NCBI GenBank assembly: GCA_002839675.1
Contig: PGYM01000005.1
Location: 1-33,204, forward strand
Reading direction: 5' to 3'
DNA: 33,204 bases
Origin: Methanomicrobiales archaeon HGW-Methanomicrobiales-1
Lineage (GTDB): Archaea; Halobacteriota; Methanomicrobia; Methanomicrobiales; Methanospirillaceae
The notes beneath the pieces were generated by a model. The model saw only the letters and a program-made list of their open reading frames with translations. It did no database searches and had not been told where the DNA came from. How positions within the stretch are numbered: position 1 is the first letter of the stretch; each line of letters starts with the position of its first letter. Position numbers and translations under genes: made by a program. This document shows, piece by piece, positions 24,762 through 33,204 of this stretch.

Positions 24762-27700
24762 TTGCATATCACAGAACTCGAAATAGATAATTTCAAGTCT
24801 TTTTCCAAAAAGACAAAAATCCCTTTTTTGGAAGGGTTCACGGTGATATCCGGGCCTAACGGGTCCGGCAAAAGCAACATCATTGATTCCATTCTTTTTG
24901 TCCTGGCACTTTCGAGTTCCCGCAATCTCCGTGCCGAGAAGCTCACGGATTTAATCAACTTAAACTCCGGGCGCAACATTGCAGAAGTTGCCCTCCAGTT
25001 CTCCGATGGCACGAAGATCCGCCGGCGGATCAAGCGGACCGGTAACGGGTATTACAGCTATAACTACCTCAATGACCGGCTCTGCAAACAGAGTGATATT
25101 GTCGAACATCTCGCAAAGCACGGGATCAAACCTCACGGCTACAACGTGGTGATGCAGGGCGATGTGACCCGCATCATGGAGATGAGCGATTTCGAGCGGC
25201 GCAAGATCATCGATGAGATCGCCGGGGTCTCCGAGTTCGATACCAAGAAACAACAGGCCCTCTCGGAGCTCGACATCGTCCGCGAGCGGATCGAACGCGA
25301 GGAGCTCCTGCTCATCGAACTGGGCAAGCGGGCAAATGAACTCAGGCGCGAACGCGAGCATGCCCTCGAGTACCAGAAATGGCAGAAGGATCTCTCGTAT
25401 TTCCAGAACTGCCGGGCCGTTGCCCAGCTGCATGACCGGGAAAAGGAACTCAACTCTCTCCTCCGCTCTACAGAAGAGCACAAGATCCACCTGACCCGGA
25501 TCGCGTCTGACCGGAGCATCGAGGAGAACGAGCTTGCGTACCTCAAGGCGGACTTAAAGGATATCGACGACCTGATCAACAAGAAGAGCGGGTCGGACTA
25601 TCTCAAGCTGATCGCAGAACTCGAAGAAGCCAAGAGCGGAATCAAGCTTGCCGAGCAGACGATTGTCCGGCTCCGGAAGGAGAAGGAAACCAATCTTGAG
25701 GCGATCAACCGCACGTACATGGATACGAAACGGGCCGAGGCGCGGGTTGCCGAATGTACCGACCTGATCCGTTCACTCACCATCGATCGCACGAACGTTG
25801 CCATGGAAGTGGCGACCTTCCGGGCCCAGCTGGAAAAAACCGAGACCGAGTTAAAGGCGCATTCCGAAGATACCGAAGGCTCGCGGGAGAAACTGTTCAC
25901 GCTCCTCAAGGAGAGCGAGGAGAAGAAGGCGCAGCGTTCCGGCATCCTGCACCAGCAGGACATGCTCATCGAGAAGAGCCGGATGCGCACCACCGAGCTG
26001 GAACGCTTAACCCTTCTCTTAAAACAACTCGATGAGGAATATACTGCCAAGCAGGCCCAGCTGACCGACAGCGAGAAGAGTGTCGGGGACCTTGCGGCAG
26101 AGAAGAAGGAGCTCGACCGCAATCTTTCGGAACTCGAAGGCTCGATGTTTGCCCAGCGTTCTACGCTCGAACGGCTGAAAAATGAGATACGGTCTGCCGA
26201 ACAGGACGCGTTCCGGCTGGAGGCTGCCCAGCAGGCCCGGGGGGAATCGGGCGGCAAGGCCCTCGAAGCGATCAAGGCAATGGAAGGGATTCACGGCACC
26301 ATTGCGGACCTCGGCAAAGCACCCCCCGAGTACTCGATGGCGCTCAATATTGCCGCGGGCAACAAGCTCCAGTTCGTGGTCTGCGATGATGACCAGATTG
26401 CGGCAGATGCCATCCGGTACCTCAAGGAGGAGCGGCTCGGGCGGGCCACGTTCCTTCCGCTCAATAAATTAAAACCGCCCCAGCTCCCGCCACTCAAGGA
26501 GCCGGGCGTGATCGATTATGCAGTAAACCTGATCGATTACGACCCGAAATATGACCGGGCATTTGCGGTTGCGCTGGGTGGCACCGTTGTCGTCGATACC
26601 CTTGACCGGGCCCGGAAACTCATTGGCAAGTTCCGCATGGTCACGCTCGAGGGTGAAATCCTTGAAAAGAGCGGGGCGATGACCGGCGGGTCGGCAAAGA
26701 AGCAGGCCATCCGGGGTTTCGGTGCCGCAGTGGACGATGAGATCATGCGGGTTCGGTCGCACCTTGGCGAGCTGATGGGTGAAGCAGCGACCCTGGAAGC
26801 CGGCGTCAAGCGACTCACCGAAGAGGTGGATGCCCGGCGTACAACAAGGAACGAGATCGACCAGAAAGTTGCCCGCTTCGGCATGTTCACCGAGGAGTTC
26901 TCGCGCCGGTTCGAGGCGATTACGGTCGAGAAGCAGACCATTGAAGCCGCTGTAGCCCGGCAGGCAGAAGAGACCCGGAATGGCGGTGCAGAACTAGCCT
27001 CGCTCGAAGGCGAGCTGGACAAGACAACCGATGAGATCAATGCGATCACGGTCCGGATTGACGAGATCAAGAAACGCCTCGACGATACCAACATTCCGGC
27101 TCTCACCGAGCAGATGGAGCGGAAGCGCAAGGAGATCGAGGAAGCGGAACGCCGGCTCCGGAATAAGGATGGCGACATCAACGATGCCCAGCGCGAACGC
27201 CAGCACTTCAATGCCCGCCTGGTCGAACTGGGTGAAGACCGGGCCCGGCAGGACGAGCGCAACCGCCAGATCGATACCGACATCGCGGGCTCCAATGATC
27301 AGATCGTCATCCACAAGTCCCAGATTGCCGCCCTCGAAGAGCGGCAGAAGGAGTTCTCCGTGGTTCTTGACGAGCTCCGCACCAAGCGGGGCGAGGCCTC
27401 GCAGCATATCCAGGACTCGGAACTCAAACTCATGAAGTTCGATGCCGACAAGGAGCGGATCACCATCCAGCTGGGGGCAATCGATGAGCGTGCCAAAACC
27501 CTTGGCATTGAAGTCGAGATGCTCAGGCAGCAGGTGGGAGATATGGACATCTCTCTTTCCCTAAAGGAAATCGAAGGGAAAATTGCCGAAGCTGACGGCG
27601 CCCTTAGGAAGATCGGCGCCGTCAACATGCTCGCGATCGAGGAGTATGAGAAAGTGGAGCGACAGGTGGGCGAACGAACGGAGCGAAAGGAAACCCTGTC

Positions 27701-28211
27701 GAGCGAGCGGACGAGCCTGATCGAACGGATCGAGATGTTCGAGCAGATGAAATTCGAAGCCTTCACTGCCGCCTTCAAGGCAATCGACACCAACTTCCGG
27801 GAGATCTTTGCCCGCCTCACCAGCGGGAGCGGGAATCTCGTGCTGGAAAACGAAGAGGATCCGTTTGCCGGCGGGATGACGTTTGCCGTCAAGCCTAGGG
27901 ACAAGAAAGTCCACCTGCTCTCGTCCCTTTCCGGCGGGGAAAAGTCCCTGACCACGCTGGCGTTCATCTTCTCCATCCAGCGGTACATCCCCGCCCCGTT
28001 CTATGCTTTCGATGAAGTGGATATGTCCCTCGATGGTTCGAACGTGGAACGGATCTCATCGATGGTTACCGAACTTGCGCCCAACTCGCAGTTCGTTATC
28101 GTCTCGCTGCGCAAGCCGATGATCGATGCTGCACAGCGGATCATGGGAGTCACGCTGCGGTCCGACAAGAGCACGCTGGTCACCGGGGTCAAGGCACATG
28201 GCGGCGCCTGA
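24762..28211 (+). CDS. smc: Chromosome segregation protein SMC
   Basis: 1149 residues, full length. Walker A is GPNGSGKS (31-38). A long coiled coil (about 160-500) leads to the hinge (about 506-645, including GIHGTIADLG and GAMTGGSAKK), then a second coiled coil. The ABC signature LSGGEKSLTTLAF and Walker B with YAFDEVDMSLDG are near the C-terminus. It forms ring-shaped condensin complexes that organise and segregate the chromosome. The start is TTG at 24762 with 'aaggag' nine bases upstream; no nearer ATG exists. The last 14 bases overlap scpA. Confidence 0.97.
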   Translation: MHITELEIDNFKSFSKKTKIPFLEGFTVISGPNGSGKSNIIDSILFVLALSSSRNLRAEKLTDLINLNSGRNIAEVALQFSDGTKIRRRIKRTGNGYYSYNYLNDRLCKQSDIVEHLAKHGIKPHGYNVVMQGDVTRIMEMSDFERRKIIDEIAGVSEFDTKKQQALSELDIVRERIEREELLLIELGKRANELRREREHALEYQKWQKDLSYFQNCRAVAQLHDREKELNSLLRSTEEHKIHLTRIASDRSIEENELAYLKADLKDIDDLINKKSGSDYLKLIAELEEAKSGIKLAEQTIVRLRKEKETNLEAINRTYMDTKRAEARVAECTDLIRSLTIDRTNVAMEVATFRAQLEKTETELKAHSEDTEGSREKLFTLLKESEEKKAQRSGILHQQDMLIEKSRMRTTELERLTLLLKQLDEEYTAKQAQLTDSEKSVGDLAAEKKELDRNLSELEGSMFAQRSTLERLKNEIRSAEQDAFRLEAAQQARGESGGKALEAIKAMEGIHGTIADLGKAPPEYSMALNIAAGNKLQFVVCDDDQIAADAIRYLKEERLGRATFLPLNKLKPPQLPPLKEPGVIDYAVNLIDYDPKYDRAFAVALGGTVVVDTLDRARKLIGKFRMVTLEGEILEKSGAMTGGSAKKQAIRGFGAAVDDEIMRVRSHLGELMGEAATLEAGVKRLTEEVDARRTTRNEIDQKVARFGMFTEEFSRRFEAITVEKQTIEAAVARQAEETRNGGAELASLEGELDKTTDEINAITVRIDEIKKRLDDTNIPALTEQMERKRKEIEEAERRLRNKDGDINDAQRERQHFNARLVELGEDRARQDERNRQIDTDIAGSNDQIVIHKSQIAALEERQKEFSVVLDELRTKRGEASQHIQDSELKLMKFDADKERITIQLGAIDERAKTLGIEVEMLRQQVGDMDISLSLKEIEGKIAEADGALRKIGAVNMLAIEEYEKVERQVGERTERKETLSSERTSLIERIEMFEQMKFEAFTAAFKAIDTNFREIFARLTSGSGNLVLENEEDPFAGGMTFAVKPRDKKVHLLSSLSGGEKSLTTLAFIFSIQRYIPAPFYAFDEVDMSLDGSNVERISSMVTELAPNSQFVIVSLRKPMIDAAQRIMGVTLRSDKSTLVTGVKAHGGA

Positions 28212-29169
28212 GGGTTCCGGCCTCCCGCCGGATGTGGAACAGGCCCCTTCAGACCCCACACCGGTCACTTCAGGTAAGAATGTGGCGGATGTACCTGCGG
28301 ATGGGGCGAAGAACCCGGAAGATAAGCAAAATACGGACAGGGAAGATCCCACAAGCGGGGTTGCCGAAACCTTGGAAGACGCCCCGCTGGTAACTGAATC
28401 AGAGAATGGCGGAGCACTGGAAGACCCGATCGAGATCCTGGTCGGGCTTGCCGAGCGGGGAGAGATCGATCCCTGGAACATCAATATCATCGAAGTGACC
28501 GACCGTTTCCTCAAGGAGCTTGAGCGGCGGCGGGAACTCAATCTCAAGCTCTCGGGACGCACCCTCTTTTACGCAGCCACGCTCCTGCGCATGAAGTCCG
28601 AGCAGCTGGAGATCCTTGCAGCCCCGGAGGATGAGGAGAGCGAGGATGACGATGGCTCGTTCGGAGAAGACTATGACGGGATGCCGGACGGGGAGATCGA
28701 ATACACCGGACGGCTGGGAATCATCGAGCGGCTCGAACACGAGATCCAGCGCAGGCTCGATCGCAAGAATATGCGGAAGAGCCCGATCACGCTCTTCGAG
28801 CTGATCACCGAGCTCAAGAATATCGAGAAAGAAGAACGGCGACGCCGGCGGATGGCAGCGGACCCGAGCGAGGCCTTCCTCATCGATGCCGATGACGTGG
28901 TCAGCATTGCCCATGACGAAGGCTACCAGGCATCCTCATCGGTAGTCCTGGAGGAGTGCCTTTCCCTCCTTGAGATTGATGGCGAGATGACGCTTGCCGA
29001 GCTCTGCGAGAAACTGGGATGGGGCATGCCGGAAGTGTATATCCCGCTGTTGTTCCTGGCACATGAGGGGCGGTGCCAGCTCCGGCAGGAGGAGTTTTTT
29101 GGGGATATCTGGGTGCAGCTGTGCCGGGTGGAAGAAGAAGAGCTCGTTTCCGGCTCCGGTTCTGAGTGA
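28198..29169 (+). CDS. scpA: Segregation and condensation protein A (ScpA kleisin)
   Basis: 323 residues from the ATG at 28198, inside the end of smc. Residues 1 to about 80 are an acidic, Pro/Thr-rich, probably disordered extension. The kleisin N-domain then follows (PIEILVGLAERGEIDPWNI, IIEVTDRFLKELE, FYAATLLRMKSEQLE). An acidic linker (EDEESEDDDG) and a C-terminal winged helix (about 245-315) complete it. ScpA bridges the SMC heads. No scpB gene is adjacent. The extension is longer than in bacterial ScpA and may be lineage-specific. Confidence 0.93.
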   Translation: MAAPEGSGLPPDVEQAPSDPTPVTSGKNVADVPADGAKNPEDKQNTDREDPTSGVAETLEDAPLVTESENGGALEDPIEILVGLAERGEIDPWNINIIEVTDRFLKELERRRELNLKLSGRTLFYAATLLRMKSEQLEILAAPEDEESEDDDGSFGEDYDGMPDGEIEYTGRLGIIERLEHEIQRRLDRKNMRKSPITLFELITELKNIEKEERRRRRMAADPSEAFLIDADDVVSIAHDEGYQASSSVVLEECLSLLEIDGEMTLAELCEKLGWGMPEVYIPLLFLAHEGRCQLRQEEFFGDIWVQLCRVEEEELVSGSGSE

Positions 29170-31526: not shown

Positions 31527-32330
31527 TCAGGTGCCCACAGCCGCTACCGTGGAATAACTCTGCGGGAAAAACGTCACCGCTATCATATTCCGGAGCCCGT
31601 TCTCAAGAGGCAGGATCACAAGTTCCAGCATACCACCGATCACGAGTGACCCAATCACGGCCCAGAACAGCGCCACCATCACCGAAGTAATAAGCGGTTT
31701 TTTTGTCAGGGCCTGGATCCCGTATCCCGCGATGAAGACTGTAAAAATAATGCCTGCAAGGACAAATGCGAGTGCCACGTATTGGGAAAGTATCCCGGGG
31801 ATAAGCCGGGGAACCTGCACAAAGGCAAGCACAGTACCGAGGAACAATGGCACTGGTAGGCTGTATGCACAGATGGTGAACGCTGGATTCCAGGACCGGA
31901 TACCGGTTATCAGCCACAGGCAGAGCGCAAGGATGATTGTCGATATTCCCAGGAACAAAATCGCATAAACGGTGCGCTCGATTGGCGCGATAATGAGGAC
32001 AGAGGGGCTGAAAATAATGCCCAGTACATCTGCAAATCCTGGTTTGAATACCGCAGGGGGGCCAAACAGAACGAAAACTGCCCACTGGAGCTGGCTTGCG
32101 AGATTCTGTAAGAAGGCGAGGATGATCGTGAAGAACAGGAAGAAGAACAAAGGTGTCTTGTAATCCCCGGCGCCGAATTCGCTGATTGCTTCTTTCGGCC
32201 GGGAGAGAAGAATATACAACCGGTGTGCCATGAAACCGGGAAATGCCCGGATCGTTTTCCATTCACCCGGTTTTTCCCAGGGGGTTCCGGCCCGGGGGCA
32301 TCCCGCCAGCAGCTCTGCAAGTTTTCCCAT
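31527..32330 (-). CDS. Yip1-like integral membrane protein
   Basis: 267 residues. A polar N-terminus (about 1-60, with HRLYILLSRPKEAISEFG) is followed by five to six membrane helices. They include LFFFLFFTIILAFLQNL, IERTVYAILFLGISTIILAL and LALAFVLAGIIF-type segments, with Pro-containing loops. The arrangement resembles Yip1-domain proteins of archaea, whose function is unknown. It is expressed alone from a strong TATA box just upstream. An A-run at 31513-31519 gives a T-run on its strand immediately after the stop. Confidence 0.8.
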   Translation of the reverse strand: MGKLAELLAGCPRAGTPWEKPGEWKTIRAFPGFMAHRLYILLSRPKEAISEFGAGDYKTPLFFFLFFTIILAFLQNLASQLQWAVFVLFGPPAVFKPGFADVLGIIFSPSVLIIAPIERTVYAILFLGISTIILALCLWLITGIRSWNPAFTICAYSLPVPLFLGTVLAFVQVPRLIPGILSQYVALAFVLAGIIFTVFIAGYGIQALTKKPLITSVMVALFWAVIGSLVIGGMLELVILPLENGLRNMIAVTFFPQSYSTVAAVGT

Positions 32331-32910: not shown

Positions 32911-32913
32911 ATC

Positions 32914-32920
32914 TTTAAAT
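32914..32920 (+). promoter_or_regulatory. TATA-like box of candidate small RNA unit 1
   Basis: TTTAAAT, 24 bases before the motif TGTAG at 32937-32941. The same TATA-to-TGTAG distance (24-25 bases) recurs in the next unit, which supports a promoter with a defined start. Confidence 0.4.
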
Positions 32921-32939
32921 GGCTGGCTGTGTTATATGT

Positions 32940-33010
32940 AGATCCACAAAATCTGATGACAAACCGACGAAACCCTTCCTTCGGGAACGGGTGTCGGTTT
33001 CGAGGGAAAA
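32940..33010 (+). ncRNA. Candidate small structured RNA, unit 1
   Basis: The interval following the TATA-like box and TGTAG motif folds into one strong nested hairpin at 32961-33000. The outer stem is AAACCGAC / GTCGGTTT, then a GAA bulge, an ACCC / GGGT stem, a one-base bulge, and the inner stem TTCC-TTCG-GGAA with a stable UUCG tetraloop. No convincing open frame covers it. The 3' end is a guess, placed where the repeated block begins. No known RNA family is recognised. Confidence 0.4.
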
Positions 33011-33055
33011 ACAACGCAGGCAACAAGGTATAAATAACCTTGAATCCTATGTTGT
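32996..33055 (+). repeat. ~60-bp promoter-bearing repeat, copy 1
   Basis: Runs from 'ggtttcgaggg' through 'gcaacaaggtataaataacc' to 'cctatgttgt'. Copy 2 at 33144-33204 matches it at roughly four of five positions, with a spacing of 149 bases between the TATA boxes. The core CAAGGTATAAATAACCTTG is also a palindrome. Confidence 0.7.
33029..33036 (+). promoter_or_regulatory. TATA box of candidate small RNA unit 2
   Basis: TATAAATA within the palindrome CAAGGT-ATAAATA-ACCTTG, 25 bases before the TGTAG motif at 33053-33057. Confidence 0.5.
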
Positions 33056-33152
33056 AGGCCCGTGGACGCGTGAGAAATCACGACGATGTCCACTGTTCAG
33101 ATACAGTTCGATGAGGACCCGAGCACTCCGGTTTAACCGGCCTTGGTTCTGA
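33056..33152 (+). ncRNA. Candidate small structured RNA, unit 2
   Basis: Starts at the TGTAG motif after a consensus TATA box. Predicted pairing: GTGGAC (33062-33067) with GTCCAC (33088-33093), enclosing CGTGA-GAAA-TCACG (33069-33082), a perfect stem with a GNRA tetraloop; an ACTGT/ACAGT hairpin at 33092-33107; and CCGG-TTTAA-CCGG at 33128-33140 near the end. Its sequence differs from unit 1 although the promoter blocks are similar. No family is recognised; ends are approximate. Confidence 0.4.
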
Positions 33153-33204
33153 TGGGAAAACAATGCGTGTAACAAGGTATAAATATCCTTGAAACCTACA
33201 TTGT
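33144..33204 (+). repeat. ~60-bp promoter-bearing repeat, copy 2 (cut by window end)
   Basis: Second copy of the block at 32996-33055, with the TATA box TATAAATA at 33178-33185. The window ends at 'acattgt', just where the start motif TGTAG would fall, so a third unit probably begins immediately outside. Confidence 0.7.

Follow-up and report, generated by a model that had tools for sequence, protein, structure and literature searches.

Serial promoters upstream of rRNA genes have been described in halophilic archaea. Halobacterium cutirubrum has five tandem rRNA promoters, growth-dependent control has been reported for one Halobacterium promoter, and Haloferax volcanii uses three start sites, 185, 293 and 444 nt before 16S (PMC4983044). 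For methanogens, we found no specific literature on tandem rRNA promoters, although older rRNA papers are incompletely covered by our search. Here we analyzed the 3' end of the window, i.e. the whole 33,204-nt stretch at the start of contig C5 (PGYM01000005.1), in a genome assigned to Methanoregula. Like Halobacterium and Haloferax, it carries serial TATA-type promoters directly upstream of an archaeal 16S gene at similar distances. The activity of the halophile promoters has been mapped, whereas those of Methanoregula are predicted from sequence. Each Methanoregula promoter has a hairpin module behind it, all of a single conserved type. In the literature, we found no report of a structured module that recurs behind every promoter, again with older rRNA work incompletely covered. 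What is known is the tandem arrangement of archaeal rRNA promoters, and what appears to be new is one copy of a conserved hairpin module per promoter, absent from Rfam.

The preliminary description, made from the letters of the window, interpreted this region as a tandem array of genes for small non-coding RNAs that continues beyond the window. Reading onward along the contig gave a different result. The window is followed by a 136-base N gap (C5:33205-33340), after which 16S rRNA starts with TTCTGGTTGATCCTGCC; Rfam locates 16S at C5:33342-34771 and 23S after it, both on the same strand as the repeated blocks. The single 16S found in the genome is the one at C5:33342. As 16S and 23S follow on the same contig, the reported array is better read as the promoter and leader region of an rRNA operon, and we conclude with high confidence that its units are tandem promoters and duplicated 5'-leader modules of the single 16S-23S rRNA operon of this Methanoregula genome (Table 1). 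As assembled, the last promoter lies 169 nt before 16S, compared with 207-236 nt in relatives with complete sequence and an intact last promoter. This suggests that the N gap is a scaffolding estimate, which is probably too short by about 40 bases or more. The gap (1206-1341 in locus L002) coincides exactly with the expected site of the last leader module and of the 5' half of the 16S processing stem. Elsewhere in the window, adjoining genes with overlapping reading frames encode the chromosome-segregation proteins SMC and ScpA (24762-29169, plus strand; Pfam), and Pfam has no match to the 267-aa open reading frame beside the rRNA promoters (31527-32330, minus strand). A tRNA search within the window found none.

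Table 1. Features of the rRNA promoter and leader region and of the spacer downstream; positions are those of the window unless marked otherwise.
Feature	Sequence elements	Position	Strand	Basis
First promoter	TATA box TTTAAATG (32914-32921), TGTAG (32938-32942)	32914..32942	+	Read from sequence
First leader module, hairpin 2 type	UGAUGA / AAACCGAC ... GUCGGUUU / CGA	32954..33003	+	Comparative alignment
Second promoter	CAAGGTATAAATA (33024-33036), TGTAG (33053-33057)	33024..33057	+	Exact-word search; same place in relatives
Repeat-unit hairpin 1	GCCCGUG ... CACGACGA ... CCAC	33058..33093	+	Comparative alignment
Repeat-unit hairpin 2	CGAUGAGGACCCGAG ... CUUGGUUCUGA, upper stem CCGG/CCGG	33108..33152	+	Covariation
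Third and last promoter	CAAGGTATAAATA (33173-33185), start region to window end	33173..33204	+	16S past the N gap
tRNA-like mini-element, window genome		L002 2842-2899 = C5:34841-34898 (past window)		Spacer comparison

We examined the two repeated blocks that had been described as about 60 bp long and about 80% alike. Blocks 32996-33055 and 33145-33204 are identical at 48 of 60 positions at a lag of 149, and over a wider span (32986-33055 against 33135-33204) at 54 of 70 positions, well above the 36 of 70 reached by the best of 60 dinucleotide shuffles. Each block is centred on the word CAAGGTATAAATA, as had been noticed, and these two are its only exact copies in the 2.47-Mb genome. Both the block identity and the genome-wide word search agree with a repeated promoter type. 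The looser TATA-like site seen further upstream is present as TTTAAATG, a TATA box different from the other two, and the same box with GATCCACAA downstream occurs in 24 loci of the genus. The reported TGTAG motif indeed lies 24 bases past the initial T of the TATA-like sequence at the first two sites; judging from this spacing, the first promoter would start transcription near TGTAG. Across all loci, the density of the promoter word is 1.13 per kb within the 1.1 kb upstream of 16S, compared with 0.024 per kb elsewhere, in a set where some genomes stand under two ids and some families never use this word.

A similarity search with the region matched 25 of 60 genomes, all of the same genus, whereas the 24 genomes from other genera gave no match. 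Both the window genome and its relatives have at least two similar TATA promoters arranged one after another ahead of 16S, and the blocks lie directly upstream of 16S in all 22 Methanoregula loci with a contig that reaches it. The layout is constant, i.e. the TTTAAATG promoter and first module are followed by 0-3 repeat units, each consisting of a CAAGGTATAAATA promoter and hairpins, and then by the last promoter and leader. In complete relatives, the corresponding last promoter runs straight into the 16S leader. Besides the window genome, the exception to the distance of 207-236 nt is L020, in which the promoter nearest 16S is degenerate and was not matched. The DNA between the blocks had been called not conserved, which holds between units, where it differs, but not between species, where identity reaches 85% over about 300 bp.

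The number and form of the units bear on the main rival to a role of the hairpins in nascent pre-rRNA, namely that promoter and leader were co-duplicated by unequal exchange, with only promoter number mattering and the upstream hairpins being functionless. L014 carries three near-identical 132-nt units, suggesting that entire units were duplicated recently; L022 has two units that are short and lack hairpin 2; and the unit number ranges from 0 to 3, all of which agree with such co-duplication. Against it, diverged repeat modules stay paired through double changes, the first module is conserved despite being furthest from 16S, and weak module matches occur between the upstream promoters of another family (both described below). 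We regard functionless co-duplication as less likely than not, and tentatively give somewhat more weight to a role in nascent pre-rRNA.

The stable hairpins with UUCG and GAAA loops that had been pointed out do fold as described, yet their single-sequence stability is ordinary (z -0.7 to -1.4). Since single-sequence folding was uninformative, structural support was taken from cross-species comparison. In the repeat modules (n = 19), 91.6% of pair cells are standard and 7 of 16 pairs show double changes. Their covariation score is higher than that of any of 500 shuffles or of any slid register, and their number of double-change pairs is reached by 22 of 500 shuffles. Related sequences can beat shuffles without any structure; as kinship can inflate the score in this way, we put more weight on the slid registers and the double-change pair count. 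The helix of hairpin 1, with the genus pattern GCCCGUG...CACGACGAA, is paired in 95.8% of cells in the 19 modules, its pairs being mostly invariant. Both helices of hairpin 2 covary, with double changes in 6 of 11 pairs, and the genus pattern here is UGAUGA-N-GRACCAA, the upper stem and UUGGUUCCGA. The first module keeps lower-stem pairing in 94.2% of cells across 22 sequences; with two double-change pairs only, the alignment argues for its structure more weakly than for that of the repeat modules. The last leader carries an equivalent hairpin, GAUGGAGAUCCAAC...GUUGGUUCUGACG. Compensatory changes across species support structured units, as first proposed.

The shape of hairpin 2 allows another interpretation. 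In the alignments of the first and repeat modules, UGAUGA opposite GA permits tandem G-A pairs after a 3-nt bulge, so the module could be a kink-turn that binds L7Ae, in which case the rRNA leader would respond to free L7Ae. In the last leader, the most conserved copy, UGAUGGA stands opposite UGA and the covarying register contains no tandem G-A pairs. We consider a kink-turn that binds L7Ae improbable, although it fits the first and repeat modules. A box C/D guide RNA was also considered and rejected, as the stretch from UGAUGA to CUGA/CCGA is a conserved paired stem and not an unpaired guide.

Every unit combines a promoter of its own with a covarying hairpin module of around 70-115 nt, as would be expected if the units were independent small RNA genes that stand upstream of 16S by chance, each yielding a short, stable transcript that terminates ahead of the following promoter. 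Using a covariance model of the module, only the two copies in this leader were significant genome-wide, the next match having an E-value of 0.27; no locus apart from the rRNA operon thus reached significance in this genome. The copies of the relatives are all at 16S, in every relative with data, and the hairpin of the last unit, which is of the same kind, belongs to the 16S leader. Rfam gave no family in the window, either at gathering score or as a weak match, rRNA only in the contig continuation, and nothing at E-values up to 10 in the leader of the complete relative L004, in agreement with the earlier statement that no known RNA family is recognizable. Given these results, independent small RNA genes are very improbable. 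The simplest reading is that the transcripts of all promoters run into 16S.

The leader was also examined for a 16S processing stem. In Haloferax, a bulge-helix-bulge or stem is needed for circular pre-rRNA and for efficient production of mature rRNA (PMC7038931). Cofolding of the leader with the post-16S spacer in six relatives gave a long stem, with totals of -103 to -112 kcal/mol for the folded stretches. In L149, L151 and L152, the predicted stem has 3-nt bulges flanking a 4-bp helix, the shape of an archaeal splicing-endonuclease site; the stem centre of L147, L148 and L150 is predicted to be a 7-by-7 open loop and not a bulge-helix-bulge. In the window genome, the 3' half of the stem is present and the 5' half falls in the N gap. 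The pairing of leader and post-16S spacer, with the 3-nt bulges and 4-bp helix of several relatives, is like the known archaeal processing stem (PMC7038931); unlike it, the last leader has an extra conserved hairpin 2 immediately 5' of the stem. Nothing on a hairpin 2 beside the processing stem was found in the literature searched. A U3-like role, in which leader motifs would pair with the ends of 16S, was assessed by eye and dropped, as matches of 6-8 bases may be due to chance.

The spacer between 16S and 23S differs between Methanoregula and other families of the order. All 10 genomes sampled from other Methanomicrobiales families have a spacer tRNA-Ala(UGC), and ARAGORN found no spacer tRNA in any of 16 Methanoregula genomes. 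In its place, all 16 Methanoregula spacers (L163-L178) have a tRNA-like element of 57-63 nt. It combines an acceptor-like stem of 5-6 bp with a single arm and a T-arm containing GGTTCGAAYCC, and has no anticodon arm. The window genome carries a complete tRNA-Ala(UGC) elsewhere (C4:158034). The spacer element resembles the Haloferax t-element upstream of 5S, which serves as a substrate for both RNase P and tRNase Z (PMC4326828).

We then compared leaders across the order. The other sampled families of Methanomicrobiales also have the leader element upstream of 16S, and its 8-bp hairpin stem is held in 98.8% of cells among 30 diverse leaders, with double changes at two pairs. A scan for TTCTGACGTTGRYNNTGRYAATGCGGA in 84,980 species genomes yielded 75 stretches; apart from two metagenome contigs with bacterial labels, all of them are named as Methanomicrobiales or unclassified Euryarchaeota. 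These two contigs, L072 and L110, bear the labels Methyloversatilis and Deltaproteobacteria but contain the rRNA leader element of Methanomicrobiales and are probably misbinned. In another family (L036, L037, L042 and L045), five to six tandem promoter-like sites lie in the ~820 nt upstream of 16S; this family is probably that of Methanofollis, by comparison with the Methanofollis record L086, which has four tandem promoter-like sites. The Methanoregula module model gave weak matches between the promoters of that family, of which L042 809-907 is significant (E 2.5e-5). The L042 match suggests that upstream promoters were already followed by modules before the genus arose.

Taken in terms of position and orientation, the three TATA-type promoters in series would give transcripts that all read into 16S and 23S, which assumes that all three are active and read through. 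Each transcript would begin with its own hairpin module, those from upstream promoters carrying several, and cleavage of the stem's bulge-helix-bulge by the splicing endonuclease would remove the surplus leader, by inference from the Haloferax work. Most likely, the extra promoters would raise and tune the rRNA output of one operon copy; their contributions may be additive, allowing growth-dependent control as for one Halobacterium promoter (PMC4983044). Unit number would vary through duplication of promoter plus module.

For the hairpins themselves, a role as binding or folding elements, or in polymerase modification, in nascent pre-rRNA is a tentative proposal, to which we give somewhat less than an even chance. 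A more specific version is that the module is a cis-acting signal of nascent pre-rRNA, e.g. for antitermination or co-transcriptional assembly, with a role like that of bacterial boxB-boxA-boxC; the module would then be kept behind every promoter so that each polymerase is modified soon after the start. Like the bacterial antitermination signal (PMC10250234), it is a structured element early in pre-rRNA, between promoters and 16S. Unlike that signal, it is repeated behind each promoter, and the likeness is by analogy only; we consider this specific version unlikely. For a region on which little methanogen literature was found, the analysis describes a conserved RNA module that Rfam lacks. Should this module act on RNA polymerase or pre-rRNA folding, the range of 0-3 units across Methanoregula would provide a natural test series.
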